NCBI RefSeq assembly: GCF_019195395.1
Contig: NZ_CP078067.1
Location: 1,875,783-1,939,782 of the forward strand
Origin: Kaistella faecalis
GTDB lineage: Bacteria; Bacteroidota; Bacteroidia; Flavobacteriales; Weeksellaceae
Reading direction: 5' to 3'
DNA: 64,000 nt
Positions 31 through 27,806 of this stretch are shown here, piece after piece. The notes under the pieces were generated by a model, which was not told the DNA's origin, did not search any database, and saw only the letters and a list, made by a program, of their open reading frames with translations. Made by a program: the position numbers and the translations under genes. How positions within the stretch are numbered: position 1 is the first letter of the stretch; every line of letters begins with the position of its first letter.

Positions 31-449
31 CACCGTTACGGCTTTGCCGCGGTGAGACTCCTGCGGAGTGACAAGCGCTATTGTTGATAATTTCGGATTT
101 TAAAAGAACATTTTGTCACTCTGGAAGAGTCCAATCATGATGGGTGCTGGATGTCAGATGCTGGATGACTTAGTGATAAAGTGGTTTGGTGGTTTAGTGT
201 GTTAATTATTGTTGCACAGTTTCGGCTTCGCCGCGGTGAGACTCCTCCGGAGTGACAAACGCTATTGTTGATGATTCGGGAACTTAAAAAAATCTTTTGT
301 CACGCTGTAAGAGTCCCATGTATAAATCACCTGTTAATTGTTGTTGCACCGTTTCGGCTTCGCCGCGGTGAGGCTCCTGCGGAGTGACAAACGCTATTGT
401 TGATAATTTCGGATTTTAAAAGAACATTTTGTCACTCTGGAAGAGTCCA
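31..449. repeat. Three direct copies of a ~103-bp dispersed repeat
   Basis: Copies lie at 31-133, 214-316 and 346-449. Each runs from GCACCGTTTCGGCTTCGCCG through CTCCTGCGGAGTGACAA to TTTTGTCACTCTGGAAGAGTCC. The two GTCACTC-type segments are in opposite orientation, so each unit could fold back on itself. Copies 1 and 3 are nearly identical and copy 2 is more diverged. Between them are short GCTGGAT/GGATGAC heptamer-like words (about 141-178 and 459-505). A degraded reverse-orientation copy lies at 23108-23215. I see no gene in 1-595. Confidence 0.8.
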
Positions 450-20183: not shown

Positions 20184-20531
20184 ACCACCCCGTCATCCTC
20201 TTGCGCGGCTGACACCCCTGGTTGCTTCCCCGCCTGTGAAGTGTCGCAATGACAGGGAATACGCGGTTTTTCTTTTGTGAGTGAGGTACTGGAAAAGGGA
20301 GATTCAGGAATACTTCAGGGGGAGGAGAATGTGCGGTATTTCTTATTTAAGTGGTTTCTAATGATCCGGGTCTGGGTGTTCTTCCGCGTTGTAATTTTAT
20401 TTCTTCCGGTGTTGACCATATAGATTTCGGCATAGCTGCACAGTACACTCTTATCCTATCCTTTATTAACACTTGGATATTCCCCTCCCCTGGAGGGGTG
20501 TCCGTGTGCTTTGCACACGGACGGGGTGGTT
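20184..20531. repeat. Palindromic-ended repeat, copy A, adjoining the DUF559 gene
   Basis: The unit begins ACCACCCCGTC and ends GGACGGGGTGGTT, so its ends are inverted. Inside the left end is GACACCCCT and inside the right end TGGAGGGGTGTCC; the right end also has a hairpin, CCGTGTGC-TTT-GCACACGG. Copy B (21049-21397) is in the same orientation and about 95% identical by eye. Its last base overlaps the DUF559 stop codon. Sixteen-odd bases at the left have been replaced by a nested repeat at 20219-20254. Confidence 0.85.
20219..20254 (-). repeat. Nested GTCATTGCGA-type repeat inside copy A
   Basis: Read on the minus strand this is CTGTCATTGCGAC, a variable middle and GGGGAAGCAACC. These are the end words of the repeat that brackets the GIY-YIG gene at 27402. 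In copies C and E of the host repeat the same place reads CCTCCAATGGAGGGG, so the nested element replaced or split that hairpin. Confidence 0.7.
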
Positions 20532-20974
20532 CATTCTGCTCCTGACCATTCATCCGGTTCTCTTACTCCATAATGCTCCATGATGAAGTTCTCCAAATCT
20601 CTCAGCACAATCTCCATATTCTTCTTAATATCATGATTTGAAATCCGGAATACTTTTACACCGTAACTTTCAAGATCACGCTGTCGCCTTATATCATATT
20701 CCTGTTTAAAATCATGACTCCAGCCATCAATTTCAATAGCCAGGCCTAAGCTTTTAACATAAAAATCTACAATATAGTTTCCAATGATTTTCTGCCGGTC
20801 AAAATCAATTTGGTGGAATCTTCCGCGGTGCACCTGTTTCCAGAACAGTACTTCACAAAGAATCAAGGCTTTCCTTTTATCCGGAAGCAGGGTTTTAAGT
20901 TTCTTATTGTAAGGCAGCATCAGTGGGGGAGTTTTCTTAATGGGGATGCCGCGGATATGGGTGAGGATTTTCAC
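20531..20974 (-). CDS. DUF559 PD-(D/E)XK endonuclease-like protein
   Basis: A 147-residue protein of the DUF559/Vsr-like superfamily. The core shows GNYIVDFYVKSLGLAIEIDG near residues 80-100, with the catalytic Asp in IVDFYV and the E-x-D in AIEIDGWSH, followed by RQRDLESYGVKVFRI. The N-terminal ALILCEVLFWKQV helix and the C-terminal helices fit the family. It is probably a DNA nuclease or nickase of unknown substrate. The stop codon touches repeat copy A and the 5' end is 74 bases from repeat copy B. No methyltransferase or mismatch-repair gene is adjacent, so a classic Vsr role is unlikely. Confidence 0.85.
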   Translation of the reverse strand: MKILTHIRGIPIKKTPPLMLPYNKKLKTLLPDKRKALILCEVLFWKQVHRGRFHQIDFDRQKIIGNYIVDFYVKSLGLAIEIDGWSHDFKQEYDIRRQRDLESYGVKVFRISNHDIKKNMEIVLRDLENFIMEHYGVREPDEWSGAE

Positions 20975-21048
20975 GGTGTTTTTAAAATAAAGATAGGAAA
21001 TTGTGGAGTGGTGGTAAAATCACCCGACTTGTTTTTACTGCATCTATG

Positions 21049-21397
21049 ACCACCCCGTCATCCGCTGGCGCGGCTGACACCCCTGGTTGCTTCCCCGCCT
21101 GTGACGTGTCGCAATGACAGGGAATACGCGGTTTTTCTTTTGTGAATGAGGTACTGGAAAAGGGAGATTCAGGAATACTTCAGGGGGAAGGGAATGTGCG
21201 GTATTTCTTATTTAAGTGGTTTCTAATGATCCGGGTCCGGGTGTTTTTCCGCGTTGTAATTTTATTTCTTCCTGTGTTGACAAGATAGATTTCGGCATAG
21301 CTGCACAGCACAATCTTATCCTATCCTTTATTAAACACTGGTATATTCCCCTCCCCTGGAGGGGTGTCCGTGTGCCTTGCACACGGACGGGGTGGTT
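21049..21397. repeat. Palindromic-ended repeat, copy B
   Basis: Starts ACCACCCCGTC and ends GACGGGGTGGTT, in the same orientation as copy A, with about twenty mismatches over 349 bases by eye. It carries the same nested repeat (21085-21120) at the same site, so A and B duplicated after that insertion. Copies A and B flank the DUF559 gene as direct repeats. Confidence 0.85.
21085..21120 (-). repeat. Nested GTCATTGCGA-type repeat inside copy B
   Basis: Same sequence and position as the nested element in copy A apart from one or two bases. Confidence 0.7.
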
Positions 21398-21498
21398 ATT
21401 TTCTGCCCGTGCACAGTGGTTCTTTCCGGAAGTGTCCGTTTTTTATATTTTGAAAGAGGTTTTGTAAACAGGGATTTTGGATCTTCCGCAGCTGATTA

Positions 21499-21565
21499 AA
21501 CCACCCCGTCATCCGCTGGCGCGGCTGACACCCCTCCAAGGGAGGGGAATACGCGGTTTTTCTAT
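21499..21565. repeat. Left-end fragment of the palindromic-ended repeat, copy E
   Basis: Reads AACCACCCCGTC ... GACACCCCTCC followed by GGAGGGGAATACGCGG and stops after the TTTTTCT tract. The internal hairpin is intact, without the nested insertion. The right half is absent. Confidence 0.75.
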
Positions 21566-21651
21566 TTGAGAATGGACTGTAAATAACTTCAGTTAATTTT
21601 TCCTGTGGAATGCCGTCCTCCAAACAAAAATCTTCCTATTTTTACGGAAGC

Positions 21652-22737
21652 ATGAAAATCCTCCACCGTATTTTTCCGTTTCTGCTGTTGGTATATCACC
21701 TCGTGTTCGCTTGGATAGGCTTTCGGTATATCCTGACCAACGGTGGGGATGCGCAACGTTACTGGTTTCTCGGACAGGATCTTGCCCATGCTTCCTGGAG
21801 TGATTTTCTGAAACCCGGCACTGATGTGGTGAAGTTTCTTACTTTTCCGCTCGTGAAGTTTTTTCACCTGCCGTTCTGGAGCGGCTTCCTGCTCTTCAGT
21901 CTGATCAGTTTTGCCGGCGCGCTGATTCTTTACCGGACCTTAATGCGAATCGCCGGAAGTAACGTAAAATTACAGGTTCTGGCGATGGTGCTGATGCTGC
22001 TTCCCAATCTCCACTTCTGGACTTCCCTTATCGGAAAGGAAGCGCTGATCCTGATTCCGCTTACGGTTTTCTGTGCTGAACTCAGCCGGAAGAGGTATTT
22101 CAGTGTACTGCTCATCATTTCAGTGCTGGCGGTGGCCGTCATCCGTCCGCATGTGGCGTTTGTCCTGGCCCTGACTTATGTCCTTGCACTTCTTCTGACC
22201 TTCCCGCTGTCTTTAAAAAGAAAAGCAATGGTATTGGGGGGACTCGCTGTCCTGACCGCTCTTTTTGCCTGGCTCCTCACCAGTCTTCAGGATTTCAGTG
22301 GCGGGTTTCAAAGGGTGTTTCAGAAATATGAAGCCCATATCCGGCATTTCAAAACGACAGACGGCTATGTACCGCTGGACGCCTATCCGCTGCCGGCGAA
22401 ACTGTTTACTTTTTACTTCAGACCCCAGCCTGTGGAACGCAGCGGTCTCTTTTATCACGTGGTCAGCACCGAAAACCTTGTACTGCTGCTTATTGCCGGA
22501 TTCGCTCTGTGGTATGGCCTCCGATATTTCGCGGAACTCCGCAGTCGCCTTCTTTTTGTTTTCCCTCTGCTCTTCATGACGGCTCTAGGGCTGATGTATG
22601 TTTATGCCTACGCGAATTACGGCATTATCATGAGGACCAGGGTGATGGCAATGCCGTTTTTTGCGGCCCTGCTGGTGGAGGTTTTTGGAGTTGCTGTAAA
22701 TGAGGCAGGTGCTTCGAAAAGAGGTCCCCGGCAGTAG
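21652..22737 (+). CDS. Multi-pass membrane protein, paralogue of 16205, candidate polymerase
   Basis: About 361 residues from the ATG at 21652; an in-frame ATG at 21610 would add a hydrophilic Ser/Lys-rich leader. There are about 10 hydrophobic segments. Shared with the 16205 product, in the same order, are NGGDAQRYW, LLPNLHFWTSLIGKEAL, IRPHV, TFYFRPQ, STENL and NYGIIMRTRVMAMPF. Conserved Arg and Asp residues in or next to membrane segments are what one expects of a Wzy-like polymerase or a ligase, but the family is not recognised. It stands alone between repeat blocks, apart from the main operon. GC is higher than in its paralogue. Confidence 0.7.
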   Translation: MKILHRIFPFLLLVYHLVFAWIGFRYILTNGGDAQRYWFLGQDLAHASWSDFLKPGTDVVKFLTFPLVKFFHLPFWSGFLLFSLISFAGALILYRTLMRIAGSNVKLQVLAMVLMLLPNLHFWTSLIGKEALILIPLTVFCAELSRKRYFSVLLIISVLAVAVIRPHVAFVLALTYVLALLLTFPLSLKRKAMVLGGLAVLTALFAWLLTSLQDFSGGFQRVFQKYEAHIRHFKTTDGYVPLDAYPLPAKLFTFYFRPQPVERSGLFYHVVSTENLVLLLIAGFALWYGLRYFAELRSRLLFVFPLLFMTALGLMYVYAYANYGIIMRTRVMAMPFFAALLVEVFGVAVNEAGASKRGPRQ

Positions 22738-23107
22738 CGGATTGCAGTCAGGTTTATTACGTAAGGTGTTGATTGCTAAATCTATTTCTGTTCTTTTGCC
22801 TTGATGCAAAAGAACGAAAAAATCAAGACTGGATCTTTTTGCCTCATTGTGTTTATATTTTTAATGGAATCGGCGATGCGCCCATGGCGGATTGCTAAAA
22901 AAGTCTACATTCCGCTAAAAGATTTAAACTTGCGCGGAAAGACTCTTGTTTTCTCAAATGAAATTATTGCCGCGCTTCGGACAAAAAATCTTTGCCTCAT
23001 CCTCTCTATTGACTTATTGGAATCGGCGAACCACACCTTCGGCGGGTTTGTTAACGCTTCATTCCAACTTTTTCTTAACGCAAAAATCTCCTAAGTCATC
23101 AACATCC
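22738..23107. repeat. Decayed dispersed repeat, non-coding
   Basis: The block contains TTCTTTTGCCTTGATGCAAAA and a following AGAACGAAAAAATCAAGACTG, a word set I know as a dispersed repeat in flavobacteria. Two GAATCGGCGA words occur about 170 bases apart (22867 and 23022). A 97-codon frame at 22801-23094 lies over it but has no protein-like features. Confidence 0.5.
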
Positions 23108-23215
23108 TAAGTCATCTGGGAGTCTCGAATCTCACAGGGGCGACGCCGGGACGGTGCAATAATGAAGAAGGGGTGTCTGTACATGCGTCTCTTACAGAGT
23201 GACAAAGGGCTGTGG
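23108..23215 (-). repeat. Reverse-orientation degraded copy of the 31-449 repeat
   Basis: GGAGTCTC ... GGCGACGCCGGGACGGTGCAATAA matches the reverse complement of the window-start repeat (AGGAGTCTCACCGCGGCGA, then CGGTGCAACAA). CTCTTACAGAGTGACAAAG matches its other end. The block order is altered, so it is a rearranged relic. Confidence 0.5.
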
Positions 23216-23283
23216 TTAGAGGGTAGGAGTAGCAAGGAAGTGAGGGGTCTCTTTCGAAGAGTGTTGGATGAGTAATGAGTGAT

Positions 23284-23480
23284 GGGTATTGGATGGAAGA
23301 TGGAAGATGGAAGATGGAAGATGGAAGATGGGTGAGGGATGCTGGAAGATGGGTGCTGGAAGATGGATGCTGGAAGATGGAAGATTGATGCTGGAAGATG
23401 GAAGATTGGACATGGAAGATGGAGGTTGGATGTAAGAGGCAAGAAGCCAGAAGCTAAAGACACGATGCTTGATGCTGGGT
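23284..23480. repeat. Degenerate heptamer tandem repeat (GGAAGAT)
   Basis: About twenty tandem or interspersed seven-base words: GGAAGAT repeated five times in a row, then mixed with GATGCTG and GGTGCTG. On the minus strand this gives a spurious IFHLPSS-type reading frame. Similar words occur at 141-178, 459-505, 28860-28880 and, as GGCTAAGAG, at 45830-45880. The stretch from here to 23695 holds no gene. Confidence 0.85.
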
Positions 23481-23695
23481 TAATTTGAGGTTCTGCAAAA
23501 TATTCCGCCTGGGTTTCCGTTATCAGGGTGATGAACAAATGGAATTTATTTTATAGTTTCCAGTGTTAAAATGACTGAATTTTATCCCGTTATTGGTATA
23601 ATTTATGTAATATTGCGGAGGAAAAAAAATCTTAAAATCTTAGGGGGATAGTAAGATTTATTTGAACCGAAAATGCTGTAAACAGCTTTGATGTT

Positions 23696-24922
23696 GTGAA
23701 AAAATTAGTGAGAATAACAACGGTACCCGTGTCGCTGGACAAGCTGCTCGGGAACCAGCTCCACTTCATGAATGAACATTATGAGGTCACCGCCGTATCG
23801 TCAGACCGCGACAGTCTGAGTAAGATCGCGGAGAAGTATGGAATCGGGCACCATCATATTGAAATGACCCGTAAAGTCACCCCCTTCAAAGACTTAAAAT
23901 CCTTCTGGCAGGTCTATAAATTCCTCAGAGCCCACCGCCCTGAAATCGTGCATACGCATACGCCTAAAGCCGGACTTATCGGCATGGCTGCGGCCTTCTT
24001 CGCCGGAGTGCCGGTGCGCATGCATACCGTAGCCGGACTGCCCCTGCTGCAGGCTAAAGGACTGAAAAAACAGGTGCTCAAGATCGCGGAAAGAACCACG
24101 TATTCATTTGCCAACGGCGTTTACCCCAATTCCTTCAACATGGAAAAAATCATCGGGGATTACGGGTTCTGCAGTGCAGGCAAGATGAAAGTTATCGGCA
24201 ACGGAAGTTCCAACGGCATCGACCTCCATCATTTTAATCCGGAACACTATCCGGAGGAAGAAATCAAAAAAATCAAAACGTCGCTCGGCATCTCAGAAAA
24301 CGATTTTACTTTCGTATTTGTCGGAAGGCTCGTAAAAGACAAAGGAATCAACGAACTGGTGGCCGCATTCTCTGACCTCTCCAAAAAACACAGCGGACCT
24401 TTCAGGCTGCTGCTGGTAGGGAACTACGAGGAAAAACTCGATCCCCTGCTGCCGGAAACCCTTGAGGAAATTGCAGAAAATCCAAATATCATCAGTACGG
24501 GATTTCAGGAAGATGTAAGACCTTACTTTGCGGTTAGTGATGCATTGGCATTCCCGAGCTACCGCGAAGGCTTCCCCAACGTGGTGCTTCAGGCCGCTGC
24601 TATGAACCTGCCGTGTATCGTAACCAACATCAACGGCTGCAACGAGATCATCGCCGACGCGGTGAACGGCCTGCTCATTCCGGTAAAGGATGAGTCCGCG
24701 CTCGGAAAGGCCATGGAGCGTATGTATCTTGACAGGTCGCTTTACACCAAACTGCAGTCCAACGCCCGAAACAGTATCGAAGGCCGCTTTACCCAAACCC
24801 TTCTCTGGTCCCAAATCCGTGAGGAGTATGACCGCCGCTGGCTGCTTTCAGGCGGTTCCGAAAGCCGTACCAAAAAGCTTTCGCGAAGTATTCTTGATAA
24901 GGCCTCTTCGTTTCTTTCTTAA
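23696..24922 (+). CDS. Family 4 glycosyltransferase
   Basis: A 408-residue GT-B fold enzyme starting at GTG (MKKLVRITTVPVSLD). VHTHTPKAGLIGMAAAFFAG near 82 is the acceptor-side motif common in early EPS glycosyltransferases. FVGRLVKDKGI near 206 and SYREGFPNVVLQAA near 285 form the donor site with both glutamates. It is separated from the other glycosyltransferases by repeats and stands alone, so it probably has its own promoter in the AT-rich leader. Its GC content is like the core genes, not like the AT-rich block at 8308-12700. Confidence 0.87.
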   Translation: MKKLVRITTVPVSLDKLLGNQLHFMNEHYEVTAVSSDRDSLSKIAEKYGIGHHHIEMTRKVTPFKDLKSFWQVYKFLRAHRPEIVHTHTPKAGLIGMAAAFFAGVPVRMHTVAGLPLLQAKGLKKQVLKIAERTTYSFANGVYPNSFNMEKIIGDYGFCSAGKMKVIGNGSSNGIDLHHFNPEHYPEEEIKKIKTSLGISENDFTFVFVGRLVKDKGINELVAAFSDLSKKHSGPFRLLLVGNYEEKLDPLLPETLEEIAENPNIISTGFQEDVRPYFAVSDALAFPSYREGFPNVVLQAAAMNLPCIVTNINGCNEIIADAVNGLLIPVKDESALGKAMERMYLDRSLYTKLQSNARNSIEGRFTQTLLWSQIREEYDRRWLLSGGSESRTKKLSRSILDKASSFLS

Positions 24923-24953
24923 CAGAAACAGAAGGGGTGATTATTTGTGCTGT

Positions 24954-25207
24954 AACCACCCCGTCATCCGCTCCCGCGGCTGACACCCCTCCAATGGAGG
25001 GGAATACGCGGTTTTTCTTATGTAAGGTAGATTTTATTAAGTCAGTACCTGGCATTTTACCACACTGTAATTTTATTCCTTCCGGCGTTTATAAGAGAGA
25101 TTTCGGCATAGTTGCACAGTACAATTTTATCCCATCGTTTATTAAACACCGCGATATTCCCCTCCCCTGGAGGGGTGTCCGTGTGCGTGCACACGGACGG
25201 GGTGGTT
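24954..25207. repeat. Palindromic-ended repeat, copy C
   Basis: Begins AACCACCCCGTC and ends GGACGGGGTGGTT, with the intact inner hairpin CCTCCAATGGAGGGG at the left. It shares AGATTTCGGCATAG and the GTAATTTTATT segment with copies A and B but lacks about 100 internal bases. Confidence 0.8.
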
Positions 25208-25213
25208 TTTTCC

Positions 25214-25419
25214 GTTAATACGCGGTTTTTCTTTTTTAACGTGGGTTTTAATAAGTGAGCTCGTGGTTCTTTCCGTAGTGTAATTTTGTGAATTTCCGTG
25301 TTGGGAAGAGAGATTGCGGTACATTTCTACACTACAACCTTATCCTATCATTTATTATATAAAGGGCATCCCCTCCCCTGAAGGGATGTCCGTGTGCTTT
25401 GCACACGGACGGGGTGGTT
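25214..25419. repeat. Palindromic-ended repeat, copy D (left end missing)
   Basis: Starts at the internal TACGCGGTTTTTCTT word and runs to GGACGGGGTGGTT. It lies in tandem directly after copy C. The internal sequence is diverged but keeps GTAATTTTGTGAATTTCCG and AGAGAGATTGCGG. Confidence 0.7.
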
Positions 25420-25703
25420 AATTTTCCGCCAAAACTGACGTAAAACTGCCCCGAAATTTCAGTTTTTGCCTCCGGAAAAATGTGATTTTGGGCAAAGAAA
25501 TTACGTATTCGTACCTTAAAGAACCCCTTTTTGCATCATAAAATTGACCTTTTTTACGGTGAAAAACATCCGTAAGAACAAAAAACTGTGCCCATACTGA
25601 GGAAAAAATATTTTGTAAGTACGGAAAAATACGTCCGTAGGTACGAAAAAAAATTTCGTCAGTACGAAATTCAGCTAAAAAACGGTAACTTTACCGCACA
25701 AAA
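25420..25703. other. AT-rich intergenic region with small hairpins
   Basis: No gene seen. Between 25559 and 25700 there are several imperfect inverted repeats built on TACGG/CCGTA and on TACGAAA/TTTCGT, for example GTACGGA ... TCCGTAGGTAC and ACGAAAAAAAATTTCGT. Their function is unknown. Confidence 0.4.
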
Positions 25704-25733
25704 AAGCCCCGGCTGCAAAACCGGGACTCATTG
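25704..25733 (-). terminator. Rho-independent terminator of the HU-like gene
   Basis: On the minus strand GTCCCGG and CCGGGGC pair around a short loop and are followed by TTTTTT, about 25 bases after the stop codon. Confidence 0.75.
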
Positions 25734-25758
25734 AAAACCATCTGTTCAGGTCGTGGGG

Positions 25759-26145
25759 CTACACGTCCTGAACTTTTTTTACCGGGGCGGTGGCCACCGT
25801 ACGTTTCAACAGGGGAGACGGCGTGAAGAGGATGCGCTTCTTGGTCACGCTCGAGGCGGTGAGTTCATCAGCGGTATCGGCTCCTGTTCCGCTCACTGAA
25901 GGGCGAAAGGTTCCCAGATCTCCGAATTTTACGATATATCCGTCCTGCAGATACTTCAGCAGGGATTTCTCCAGACCGAAAAGCACCGCACGGATGTCGA
26001 CGCTGTTCAGCGTAGAGGCATCCGAAAGTTCTTCGGAAATGGTTCTTACATCGATGACTCCTGTACTTTTCACCAGCGGATAAAACTTCTTCGGATCATC
26101 CGGCAGCTGTGGATTGCGTCTTTCGACGGCCTTAAATGTAATCAT
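25759..26145 (-). CDS. Bacteroidota HU-like DNA-binding protein
   Basis: A 128-residue protein of the HU-related family found in Bacteroidota. It has an N-terminal DNA-binding extension, a conserved VIDVRTISEELS helix segment near 30-40, the beta-arm signature KFGDLGTFRPSVSG near 75-88 and a Ser/Thr/Lys-rich tail. These proteins bind DNA as nucleoid proteins, often without a known specific role. A terminator follows. It is divergent from the XRE regulator, with 247 bases between. Confidence 0.85.
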   Translation of the reverse strand: MITFKAVERRNPQLPDDPKKFYPLVKSTGVIDVRTISEELSDASTLNSVDIRAVLFGLEKSLLKYLQDGYIVKFGDLGTFRPSVSGTGADTADELTASSVTKKRILFTPSPLLKRTVATAPVKKVQDV

Positions 26146-26294
26146 AACGATCAGTTTTAAAAATTAGAATTAAAAGATTTGAATGCCGGGGCTTTACCAT
26201 TCGGCCGTGGCGCTTTGTGCTGTAGGATGAACCTGGAATGGTGGTCGGTTCGGCTGCTTTTAGGTCATATTTTTAATAATTAATGTTAAATAAT

Positions 26295-26340
26295 TTGTAC
26301 AGAAAAGATAAATATGTATCTTTACATCGATACAAATATA
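26295..26340 (+). promoter_or_regulatory. XRE gene promoter overlapped by an inverted repeat (candidate operator)
   Basis: TTG at 26295-26297, a 19-base spacer and TATCTTTA at 26317-26324 match the Bacteroidota promoter. The 20-base inverted repeat TGTATC-N8-GATACA at 26315-26334 covers the -7 box. On the minus strand TATATTTG (26340-26333) could serve the HU-like gene. This would allow autoregulation by the adjacent XRE protein, but binding is inferred. The rest of the 26146-26392 gap shows nothing else. Confidence 0.6.
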
Positions 26341-26392
26341 ATAAAATGTTTTAAATAAAAAACATTTGTGTTGAAAAAAATACAAAATAATA

Positions 26393-27202
26393 ATGAAGCC
26401 ACCTGAAATAAATACATCAGAAGTAATAAAAAATATACGTTCCGAACTGGGGATGACACAGAATGAATTCGCTACGGCTATGAATATCAGTAGAAGTGCG
26501 GTAACACAGTTGGAAAATGGAAATACTAAACCCAGTTTTGCGCTGATGACAACCCTGGTAGAAGATTTCGGAATCGATATGAATGTTTTTTTTAACAGCG
26601 AAGCTAAAGTTGGTGAAAAACAGCAAGTTACGGAAAAAGAAATAGAGCGGAAAGTTAAAAAAATTGAAAGTTTCCACAGCAGGTACTATGGCATGTCGTA
26701 TAATGCTTTGCTTTATGATAAGCTCATAGAGTCGGTTGCTTCATCATATTCCAATAAAGAAGAAGGGAAAGCCTTGATTGGCTTATATAAAATATACCAG
26801 TTTGTTCGGGCTTATACTGATATGTTTGAGGCAGATATCCTGGATCCGCTGAAGCGTCATATCCATACGGTGCGGCAGATGAGAAAGGAAAAAGGAGATC
26901 GTAAAGAGTTTCTGGATGAAGAATTAAGGGAGAAATTTAATTCCGCGCAGTTGCAACTGGGTAGAATTATGAAAAATGCCTATCATTTTAATGAACATTA
27001 TGGTGATATTTTCAATAAATTTCTTGAAGATAATCAAGATATTCTTCGATCCGAATATGTGGTGAGTGATACAAGACTGCAGAAAATGATGCTCGCTTCG
27101 CAGGAGCGGTACCTTCGTGAATTTATTTTTCTTATTCGGTATGCGGATGATCTGGATCAGTTGGAAGAATATTACGAGGTAGAACACCTGTGGGAAGAAT
27201 AG
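26393..27202 (+). CDS. XRE-family transcriptional regulator
   Basis: A 269-residue protein. Residues 10-65 form a Cro/C1-type helix-turn-helix (IRSELGMTQNEFATAMNISR followed by SAVTQLENG). The long remainder is rich in Lys and Glu with helical character, with no recognised domain. It is probably a DNA-binding regulator of a nearby or unlinked target. Its own promoter overlaps an inverted repeat, which fits self-repression. A repeat block follows 3 bases after the stop codon. Confidence 0.8.
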   Translation: MKPPEINTSEVIKNIRSELGMTQNEFATAMNISRSAVTQLENGNTKPSFALMTTLVEDFGIDMNVFFNSEAKVGEKQQVTEKEIERKVKKIESFHSRYYGMSYNALLYDKLIESVASSYSNKEEGKALIGLYKIYQFVRAYTDMFEADILDPLKRHIHTVRQMRKEKGDRKEFLDEELREKFNSAQLQLGRIMKNAYHFNEHYGDIFNKFLEDNQDILRSEYVVSDTRLQKMMLASQERYLREFIFLIRYADDLDQLEEYYEVEHLWEE

Positions 27203-27205
27203 ACA

Positions 27206-27376
27206 GTCATTGCGGGAAGCAAAGCGACGAAGCAATCCTTAAGTGAAGGTTCCCATCGTCGAAAGGCGCGCTGTGTTCAACGGATTGCCACGCTCCACTT
27301 CGTTCCGCCCGCAATGACGAGTGTACTTTAATTAGGGTTCCGGGTCATTGCGAGGAGCGCAGCGACGAAGCAATCC
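27206..27376. repeat. GTCATTGCGA-type repeats left of the GIY-YIG gene
   Basis: Three units: 27206-27238 (GTCATTGCGGG to AAGCAATCC), 27282-27318 in reverse (GGATTGCC to CGCAATGAC) and 27344-27376 forward (GTCATTGCGAGG to AAGCAATCC). The segment 27268-27376, including the spacer GTACTTTAATTAGGGTTC, is repeated at 27703-27806. Confidence 0.85.
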
Positions 27377-27401
27377 TTAAGTAATAATTCAGTCATTCAA
27401 T

Positions 27402-27698
27402 ATGAAACAAGGCTACATTTACATCCTCACCAACAAGAACAACACGACCCTTTACGTGGGCGTAACTTCTCATCTTCCGGAACGGATAATGCAGCATCGG
27501 ACGAAGAAATACCCTAAAAGTTTTACTGCAAGATACGGCCTGCAAAAACTGGTGTACTGGGAGTCTTTCGCCAGTATTACGGAAGCAATTGCAAGAGAAA
27601 AGCAGTTAAAGGGCGGTTCTAGGCAGAAGAAAACTGATCTGATCAACGGGCTCAATCCGGAATGGAATGATTTGTATGATTCGCTGGATCGTGATTAG
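27402..27698 (+). CDS. Stand-alone GIY-YIG nuclease
   Basis: A 98-residue single-domain GIY-YIG protein. The YIYILTN strand (GIY position) near residue 5 and TLYVGVT (YIG position) near 17 are followed by the active-site Arg in LPERIMQHR and a Glu in AIAREKQLKGGSR near 64, then a KKTDLINGLNPEWNDLY end. Such proteins cut or nick DNA, though the substrates of stand-alone members are mostly unknown. It sits between direct copies of a GTCATTGCGA-type repeat, and the nearest repeat unit ends 25 bases before the start. Confidence 0.88.
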   Translation: MKQGYIYILTNKNNTTLYVGVTSHLPERIMQHRTKKYPKSFTARYGLQKLVYWESFASITEAIAREKQLKGGSRQKKTDLINGLNPEWNDLYDSLDRD

Positions 27699-27702
27699 AG
27701 TA

Positions 27703-27806
27703 CGCTGTGTTCAACAGATTGCCACGCTCCACTTCGTTCCGCTCGCAATGACGAACGTACTTTAATTAGGGTTCGGGTCATTGCGAGGAGCGCAGCGACG
27801 AAGCAA
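27703..27806. repeat. GTCATTGCGA-type repeat right of the GIY-YIG gene
   Basis: Direct copy of 27268-27376, with a reverse unit at 27716-27752 and a forward unit from 27777 to 27806. It starts 5 bases after the GIY-YIG stop codon, with only a handful of mismatches to the left copy. The forward unit ends AAGCAACGCG rather than AAGCAATCC. Confidence 0.85.

Follow-up and report, generated by a model that had tools for sequence, protein, structure and literature searches.

Two small nuclease genes in a 64,000-nucleotide stretch of the Kaistella faecalis genome (the window; the host genome is complete, 2.66 Mb) were each found to be enclosed by copies of their own short repeat family. A DUF559 gene, encoding a nuclease of the PD-(D/E)XK fold, is bracketed by repeats of family A, and a single-domain GIY-YIG gene by repeats of family B. 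The association of small nucleases with bracketing repeats is general. Repeat-nuclease-repeat cassettes of this kind recurred, well in excess of controls, in relatives from the taxonomic family and in about ten phylum-level groups, and whole cassettes were found in-frame within coding genes, including a leuS site at which inserts and hosts differ incongruently. Judged by sequence comparison, each repeat is paired with its own (cognate) nuclease subfamily. Such cassettes probably spread themselves, together with solo copies of their repeats, by homing-like breakage and repair. A preliminary description of the window had proposed, from the two genes alone, a general class of nuclease-linked palindromic repeats, and that proposal is now strongly supported by two flank samples and by the cognate pairing.

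Among the matches listed, 121 of 246 genomes of the taxonomic family matched the DUF559 protein and 167 matched the GIY-YIG protein. Part of the existing loci, 70 for each nuclease, was taken and the left flank compared with the right, a similarity of at least 33 bits counting as a pass. Excluding four loci cut by contig ends (L036, L049, L097 and L098), the test was passed by 64/68 DUF559 and 56/68 GIY-YIG loci, compared with only 3/307 control open reading frames (ORFs), sampled from family genomes as twenty stretches of 20 kb. The three GIY-YIG groups passed at 24/28 (GIY1), 17/20 (GIY2) and 15/20 (GIY3). The cross-phylum sample comprised the best 80 of at least 576 relatives, with phylum-level groups taken from record titles; 71/79 GIY-YIG loci passed (L262 was excluded, its flank being too short) against 13/313 neighbouring ORFs. 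The possibility that flanking repeats are no commoner than expected, on which the preliminary description would have fallen, was thus checked in two independent samples and the association held in both; its argument that chance association was unlikely is borne out by the controls.

The pairing of repeat and nuclease was specific. Family A bracketed 62/70 DUF559 loci (70/70 had it on at least one side) and none of the 70 GIY-YIG loci. Family B bracketed 26/30 GIY1 loci (30/30 on at least one side), 1/20 GIY2 loci and 0/70 DUF559 loci (3/70 on at least one side). GIY2 and GIY3 loci carried instead repeats resembling TGTCATTCCGnAGGAATCT, TGTCATTC..GAATCT and TGTCAGGCTGAGCGGAGTCGAAGCCT. A distant subfamily of standalone DUF559 genes (L418-L432) was paired with another palindrome, CCCTAAAGGGAG / CTCCCTTTAGGG, seen by eye in the flanks of all 15 loci, in some as a variant; 9/15 of these loci passed the flank test and A was present at 0/15.

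Presence across the 246 genomes was scored with our own cuts on the matches listed, fused genes being excluded: standalone DUF559 down to E 2e-22 (95 genomes) and GIY1 down to E 1.5e-26 (52 genomes), with repeats counted as exact-pattern copies. For A and DUF559, 85 genomes had both, 10 the gene only, 44 the repeat only and 107 neither (Fisher p 1e-21); for B and GIY1 the corresponding numbers were 51, 1, 77 and 117 (p 3e-16). The genomes are related, and these p values therefore overstate independence. In a joint regression the copy number of A was tied more closely to DUF559 (t 10.9; GIY1, t 3.9), and that of B to GIY1 (t 10.9; DUF559, t 3.4). Repeat type also followed the GIY-YIG protein tree: on the 127 rows that could be labelled (38 of the 165 in the tree could not, and were excluded), 30 changes sufficed, whereas 300 shuffles never needed fewer than 64. 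For the cross-phylum and plasmid rows (n=75), 22 changes were required versus 28.

A strict detector, requiring palindromes of the CGTC/TGTC type that share one stem left and right of the gene, was applied to 165 GIY-YIG loci and 662 control ORFs, labels for L092, L097, L098 and L105 being excluded. Both sides were positive at 75/165 loci versus 6/662 controls; a further 54 loci were positive on one side and 36 on none, while 152/662 controls were positive on one side. For GIY-YIG genes on plasmids, 16 of 33 records (from Rhizobium, Neorhizobium, Shinella, Azospirillum, Sphingobium, Novosphingobium and Aeromonas) were examined, and 10 of these 16 loci had CGTC/TGTC palindromes on both sides. 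Many repeats at the cross-phylum loci read CGTCATTCCCGCGnAGGCGGGAATCCAG, a textbook repetitive extragenic palindrome of the CGTC type (CGTC-REP), and repeats at proteobacterial GIY-YIG genes folded with z values of -3.7 and -4.0. Orientation was biased on both sides of the gene, at 71:27 (5') and 69:31 (3') for GIY-YIG and at 57:0 (5') and 45:14 (3') for DUF559. The median distances from gene end to repeat were 46 and 31.5 bp for GIY-YIG, and 28 and 10 bp for DUF559.

Evidence of movement came from insertions within coding genes. DUF559, with translated repeats, was found in-frame within leuS, within metH (L435) and within a Type ISP gene (L052); the last insert carries A repeats, and in both L435 and L052 repeat-derived peptide lies on the sides of the in-frame DUF559. 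At leuS, 12 of 30 loci examined (L438-L449, twelve genomes) had the insert, close to the leucyl-tRNA synthetase editing domain. Between two landmarks, 177-203 residues were counted in the 11 occupied loci measured (L445 was excluded), compared with 33 residues in 16 of the 18 insert-free loci, 34 in one and 49 in one. Identities of the 11 inserts correlated poorly with those of their hosts (r 0.22). For genomes G145 and G154 the hosts were 89% identical and the inserts 50%, and for G154 and G168 the values were 83% and 67%. This incongruence suggests repeated entry at one site. The leuS gene of G122 has an additional repeat-like insert downstream. For GIY-YIG, a cassette of Azospirillum lipoferum (L216) lies between sufB and sufC. 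The flanks of a Shinella cassette (L224) resemble sufB and sufC, the record being unannotated there, and the two cassettes may occupy the same operon gap.

The DUF559 model (pLDDT, the predicted local distance difference test score, 85) matched best to 3hrl, a DUF559 protein (E 1.2e-6), and its nearest solved relative outside DUF559 was the homing endonuclease I-Bth0305I (3r3p, E 1.2e-3). Among the acidic active-site residues of 32 sequences, D70 and E81 were invariant and D83 was conserved in at least 90%; the D..E.D motif was present in 11/11 leuS inserts. The GIY-YIG residues invariant in 24 relatives include the Y, Y, R, E and N of the core, which we take to have catalytic roles. The solved sequences closest to the GIY-YIG profile were UPF0213 / YhbQ-type proteins (1zg2, 1ywl), for which we know of no repeat association, although no search was aimed at one. 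Given the matches to 3hrl and then I-Bth0305I and the conserved GIY-YIG core, both folds, GIY-YIG and the EDxHD-like PD-(D/E)XK of DUF559, are known among homing enzymes; a DUF559-containing gene is placed in the EDxHD family in the available text of PMC9403480. No anti-phage defence gene was identified with PADLOC, whose matches were weak and partial (best mREase_II, E 5.7e-6, and UzuA, E 0.0053; PADLOC states no cut-off), and NCBIfam gave no match above cut-off.

Within the window, the two genes were as the preliminary description had them. The DUF559 gene (20531..20974, minus strand, 147 aa) matched Pfam PF04480 (E 5.1e-24) and is the only DUF559 gene of the genome; the GIY-YIG gene (27402..27698, plus strand, 98 aa) matched PF01541 (E 1.6e-16). 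Family A has the pattern ACCACCC-CGTC-hairpin-(C/A)CA-CCCCTCC-nn-GGAGGGGAAT and eight copies at 20184-25419. The two nearest to DUF559 both point their CGTC heads at the gene: one at its 3' end (20478..20531, minus strand; two hairpins, z -5.9), whose final base is shared with the stop codon, and one at its 5' end (21049..21085, plus strand). Outside this inverted pair lie an outer left copy (20184..20220, plus strand), with CGTC head, hairpin and degenerate tail, and an outer right copy (21344..21397, minus strand). The 21049 and 21344 copies form a unit of about 350 bp that is directly repeated on either side of DUF559. A solo copy follows at 21499..21551 (plus strand, z -3.5), and the remaining three are at 24954..25006 (plus strand), 25155..25207 (minus strand, inverted partner of the 24954 copy, z -5.2) and 25369..25419 (minus strand). 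The elements abut stop codons and fold into two strong, GC-rich hairpins (z -3.5 to -5.9), the second, CCCCTCC..GGAGGGG, following the first. Compared with the rules for CGTC-REPs, the CGTC tag and hairpin are present and the stems of the minus-strand copies do not start with AT. A short tandem array rich in GGAAGAT was seen at window positions 23280-23468.

Family B has the pattern (C/G/A)GTC-ATTGCG...GCAAT-C and five copies at 27205-27806. Three lie before the GIY-YIG gene, namely the outer left copy (27205..27238, plus strand), an inverted copy, CGTC-tagged on its own strand (27284..27322, minus strand), and a weakly folding copy (27343..27376, plus strand; z -0.2) 24-25 bp 5' of the start. 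About 20 bp 3' of the stop lies the inverted partner of the 27343 copy (27718..27754, minus strand), followed by the outer right copy (27776..27806, plus strand). The nearest B copies point their tails at GIY-YIG, in contrast to the nearest A copies with their heads toward DUF559. The preliminary description had each gene bracketed by direct copies. Direct copies are indeed present, aligning at 95% identity over 350 bp for A and 105 bp for B, but they arise because further copies sit outside the pair nearest each gene, and that nearest pair is inverted. When up to 2 mismatches were allowed, the B core matched the genome at four places, three of them flanking the GIY-YIG gene; the fourth, elsewhere and with 2 mismatches, looks like chance. 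Assignment of family B as a strict CGTC-REP was rejected, as two of the five copies read CGTC and three GGTC or AGTC, the outer stem is about 5 bp with a long interior, and the two folds tested were not above shuffles. An Rfam scan of the stretch gave two sub-threshold matches only.

The genome holds four standalone GIY-YIG genes including that of the window, so the two cases first described, both real, are not the only ones: repeated flanks were found at all three of the others, and at neither of two GIY-YIG domains inside long proteins. One standalone gene (G000:C1:1874250-1874468) lies about 1.3 kb before the window, and its own TTGTCACTC-type repeats reach window positions 66-429. At another locus (G000:C1:2216434-2217025; L013, L016, L017), a GIY-YIG gene is accompanied by a broken second copy and a tandem duplication of about 400 bp; the flanks have the appearance of a tRNA gene with terminator and a partial second copy (the tRNA was read by eye).

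The cassette, a nuclease gene and its inverted pair of short palindromes, would behave as one unit. The nuclease would recognize its own repeat, or the entry site, and make a nick or a double-strand break, and repair from a copy bearing the cassette or the repeat would insert a cassette or a solo repeat. Solo repeats would then be non-autonomous progeny. GIY-YIG and the Vsr-like / EDxHD-like PD-(D/E)XK fold of DUF559 would both have come to act in this way, each subfamily with a repeat of its own. Copying by break repair is made more plausible by the homing endonuclease that is the nearest solved non-DUF559 relative of DUF559, and by in-frame cassettes that share one leuS site with incongruent similarity of inserts and hosts. 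It also gains from an evolution experiment in which candidate hotspots of mutation and recombination were reported next to 11 GIY-YIG genes and at segments that carry DUF559; according to the available text of PMC12308824, none of these hotspots was experimentally confirmed. Nuclease-driven spread, itself an inference, is the best-supported mechanism.

Several observations weigh against this reading. The flank test was failed by 4/68 DUF559, 12/68 GIY-YIG and 8/79 cross-phylum loci. The repeat families had been described as dispersed, and in relatives they are, with up to 38 A and 34 B copies per genome; in K. faecalis itself, however, both are local to the nuclease loci and unspread, all eight A matches of a 1001 bp A region searched with BLAST against the whole genome lying within window 20184-25423. 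The description of the repeats as palindromic is right for A, but the two window B copies tested folded no better than shuffles (z -0.2 and +1.0), and the term therefore fits window B only loosely. By the cuts used, 44 genomes carried A without DUF559 and 77 carried B without GIY1, and 10 carried DUF559 without exact A. In the genus labelled g21, DUF559 and GIY1 cassettes occupy conserved sites, so movement there is rare, and 30 of 173 genomes listed match nearly the entire 3.4-kb DUF559 stretch; the standalone g21 cassettes look vertically inherited. Among g21 sites lacking DUF559, 3/14 had one clear outer palindrome, others were degraded and one (G188) keeps a remnant of the gene. With this mixed state, loss is as likely an account as an empty target, and the single-palindrome state fits insertion and excision equally. 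A clean empty site for the GIY-YIG cassette of the window was not found in 36 genomes of the genus.

At that locus, the interval from HU to lplA, the neighbour of the window GIY-YIG gene, differs in each relative of the genus. Eight other genomes of the genus carry GIY1; in seven of them it is 15 kb or more away from lplA or on a different contig. In G164, one of two GIY1 copies lies about 3.4 kb from lplA, and relocation of GIY1 was therefore not uniform. A GIY-YIG gene of a different subfamily adjoins lplA in G162 (L333). In six g21 genomes without GIY1 (L402-L407, compared with L109), a stretch of about 593-603 bp stands in place of the GIY1 cassette.

The repeats without a cognate nuclease (44 genomes for A, 77 for B) and the single palindrome at 3/14 g21 sites would also be expected if mobile or homing nuclease genes entered palindromes that had been spread otherwise, the repeat being the target and not the product. 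This appears unlikely, since the same inverted pair recurs with preferred polarity, repeat copy number increases with the cognate nuclease, and whole two-repeat cassettes lie in-frame in leuS where cassette-free relatives show no repeat (33 residues in 16 of 18, 34 in one and 49 in one). A structure-specific enzyme that trims or resolves hairpin repeats during replication, with the flanking repeats as autoregulatory or maintenance sites, would account for the conserved sites of the single-copy genes in g21, for repeats so near the gene ends (the medians given above) and for the strong folding of A and of classic REPs. We regard such a housekeeping role as improbable to a similar degree, given the patchy presence of the genes (95/246 genomes for DUF559 and 52/246 for GIY1, by our own cuts among the matches listed), the in-frame cassettes in leuS, metH and the Type ISP gene, and the incongruence of insert and host in leuS.

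Ordinary terminators or insulators standing by chance beside small genes would suit the GC-rich hairpins of A that abut stop codons. They are a most improbable explanation, because repeat identity follows nuclease subfamily and control ORFs shared flanks in only 3/307 and 13/313 cases. Chance co-location, for which the repeat-rich character of the window stretch speaks, has a negligible probability, being contradicted by all cross-genome tests (flanks, co-occurrence, motif matrix and strict detector). Both the chance and the terminator readings were rejected on the controls, including the 6/662 of the strict detector.

Homing-like spread by the nucleases may be set beside known systems. The closest are REPtrons, in which GTAG-REPs are associated with REP-associated tyrosine transposases (RAYT / TnpA-REP; available text of PMC3733652, PMC8266576 and PMC6006769). 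As described there, they too consist of a gene with short palindromes of a single family, its own, on either side and in preferred orientations; many genomes also contain solo repeats at other places, the genes are patchily distributed and usually single-copy, and enzyme and repeat are inherited together. They differ in the enzyme, which here is GIY-YIG or DUF559 (Pfam finds these only) and not an HUH tyrosine transposase, and in the tag, here CGTC, TGTC or GTC and not GTAG. The CGTC-REP superfamily was described in 2013 (Di Nocera) as having no dedicated transposase gene, so far as the available text of PMC3733652 goes. The repeats at proteobacterial GIY-YIG genes match it in tag (CGTC/TGTC), stem (8-9 bp), loop (4-5 nt) and CCA-like tail, although here the partner is a nuclease gene, and window families A and B meet the stem and loop rules only partly. 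Free-standing homing endonucleases (the EDxHD family of I-Bth0305I, and GIY-YIG) have the same folds, and the same-site leuS insertions with incongruent inserts are homing-like; unlike them, the cassettes involve no intron or intein, short palindromes carry the gene, and there are solo palindromes as well. Rickettsia palindromic elements (RPEs) insert into coding genes, as do the leuS and metH cassettes, although what is inserted here includes a nuclease gene. Their repeats are also CGTC-tagged, RPE-4 and RPE-6 being assigned to the CGTC superfamily in the available text of PMC3733652. No earlier report of the nuclease-repeat pairing was found in the literature searched, a search whose coverage excluded most subscription journals and preprints.

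The comparison gives CGTC-REPs concrete candidate enzymes, and suggests that REP-like repeats can have nucleases of at least two folds as partners, in addition to the HUH transposases. Both nuclease families are leading candidates for the agent behind the spread of a large class of repeats in bacteria. More tentatively, and with slightly less confidence than an even balance would allow, homing-type nucleases of two unrelated folds might be the long-missing mobilizers of REPs of the CGTC type, and likewise of several other palindrome families, forming minimal elements, widespread in bacteria, that multiply by break repair and not by a transposase. If true, the mechanism would account for many of the short palindromic repeats seen in bacteria and for their in-frame insertions in essential genes, as well as for many of the small ‘GIY-YIG nuclease family’ and ‘DUF559’ proteins of no known function.

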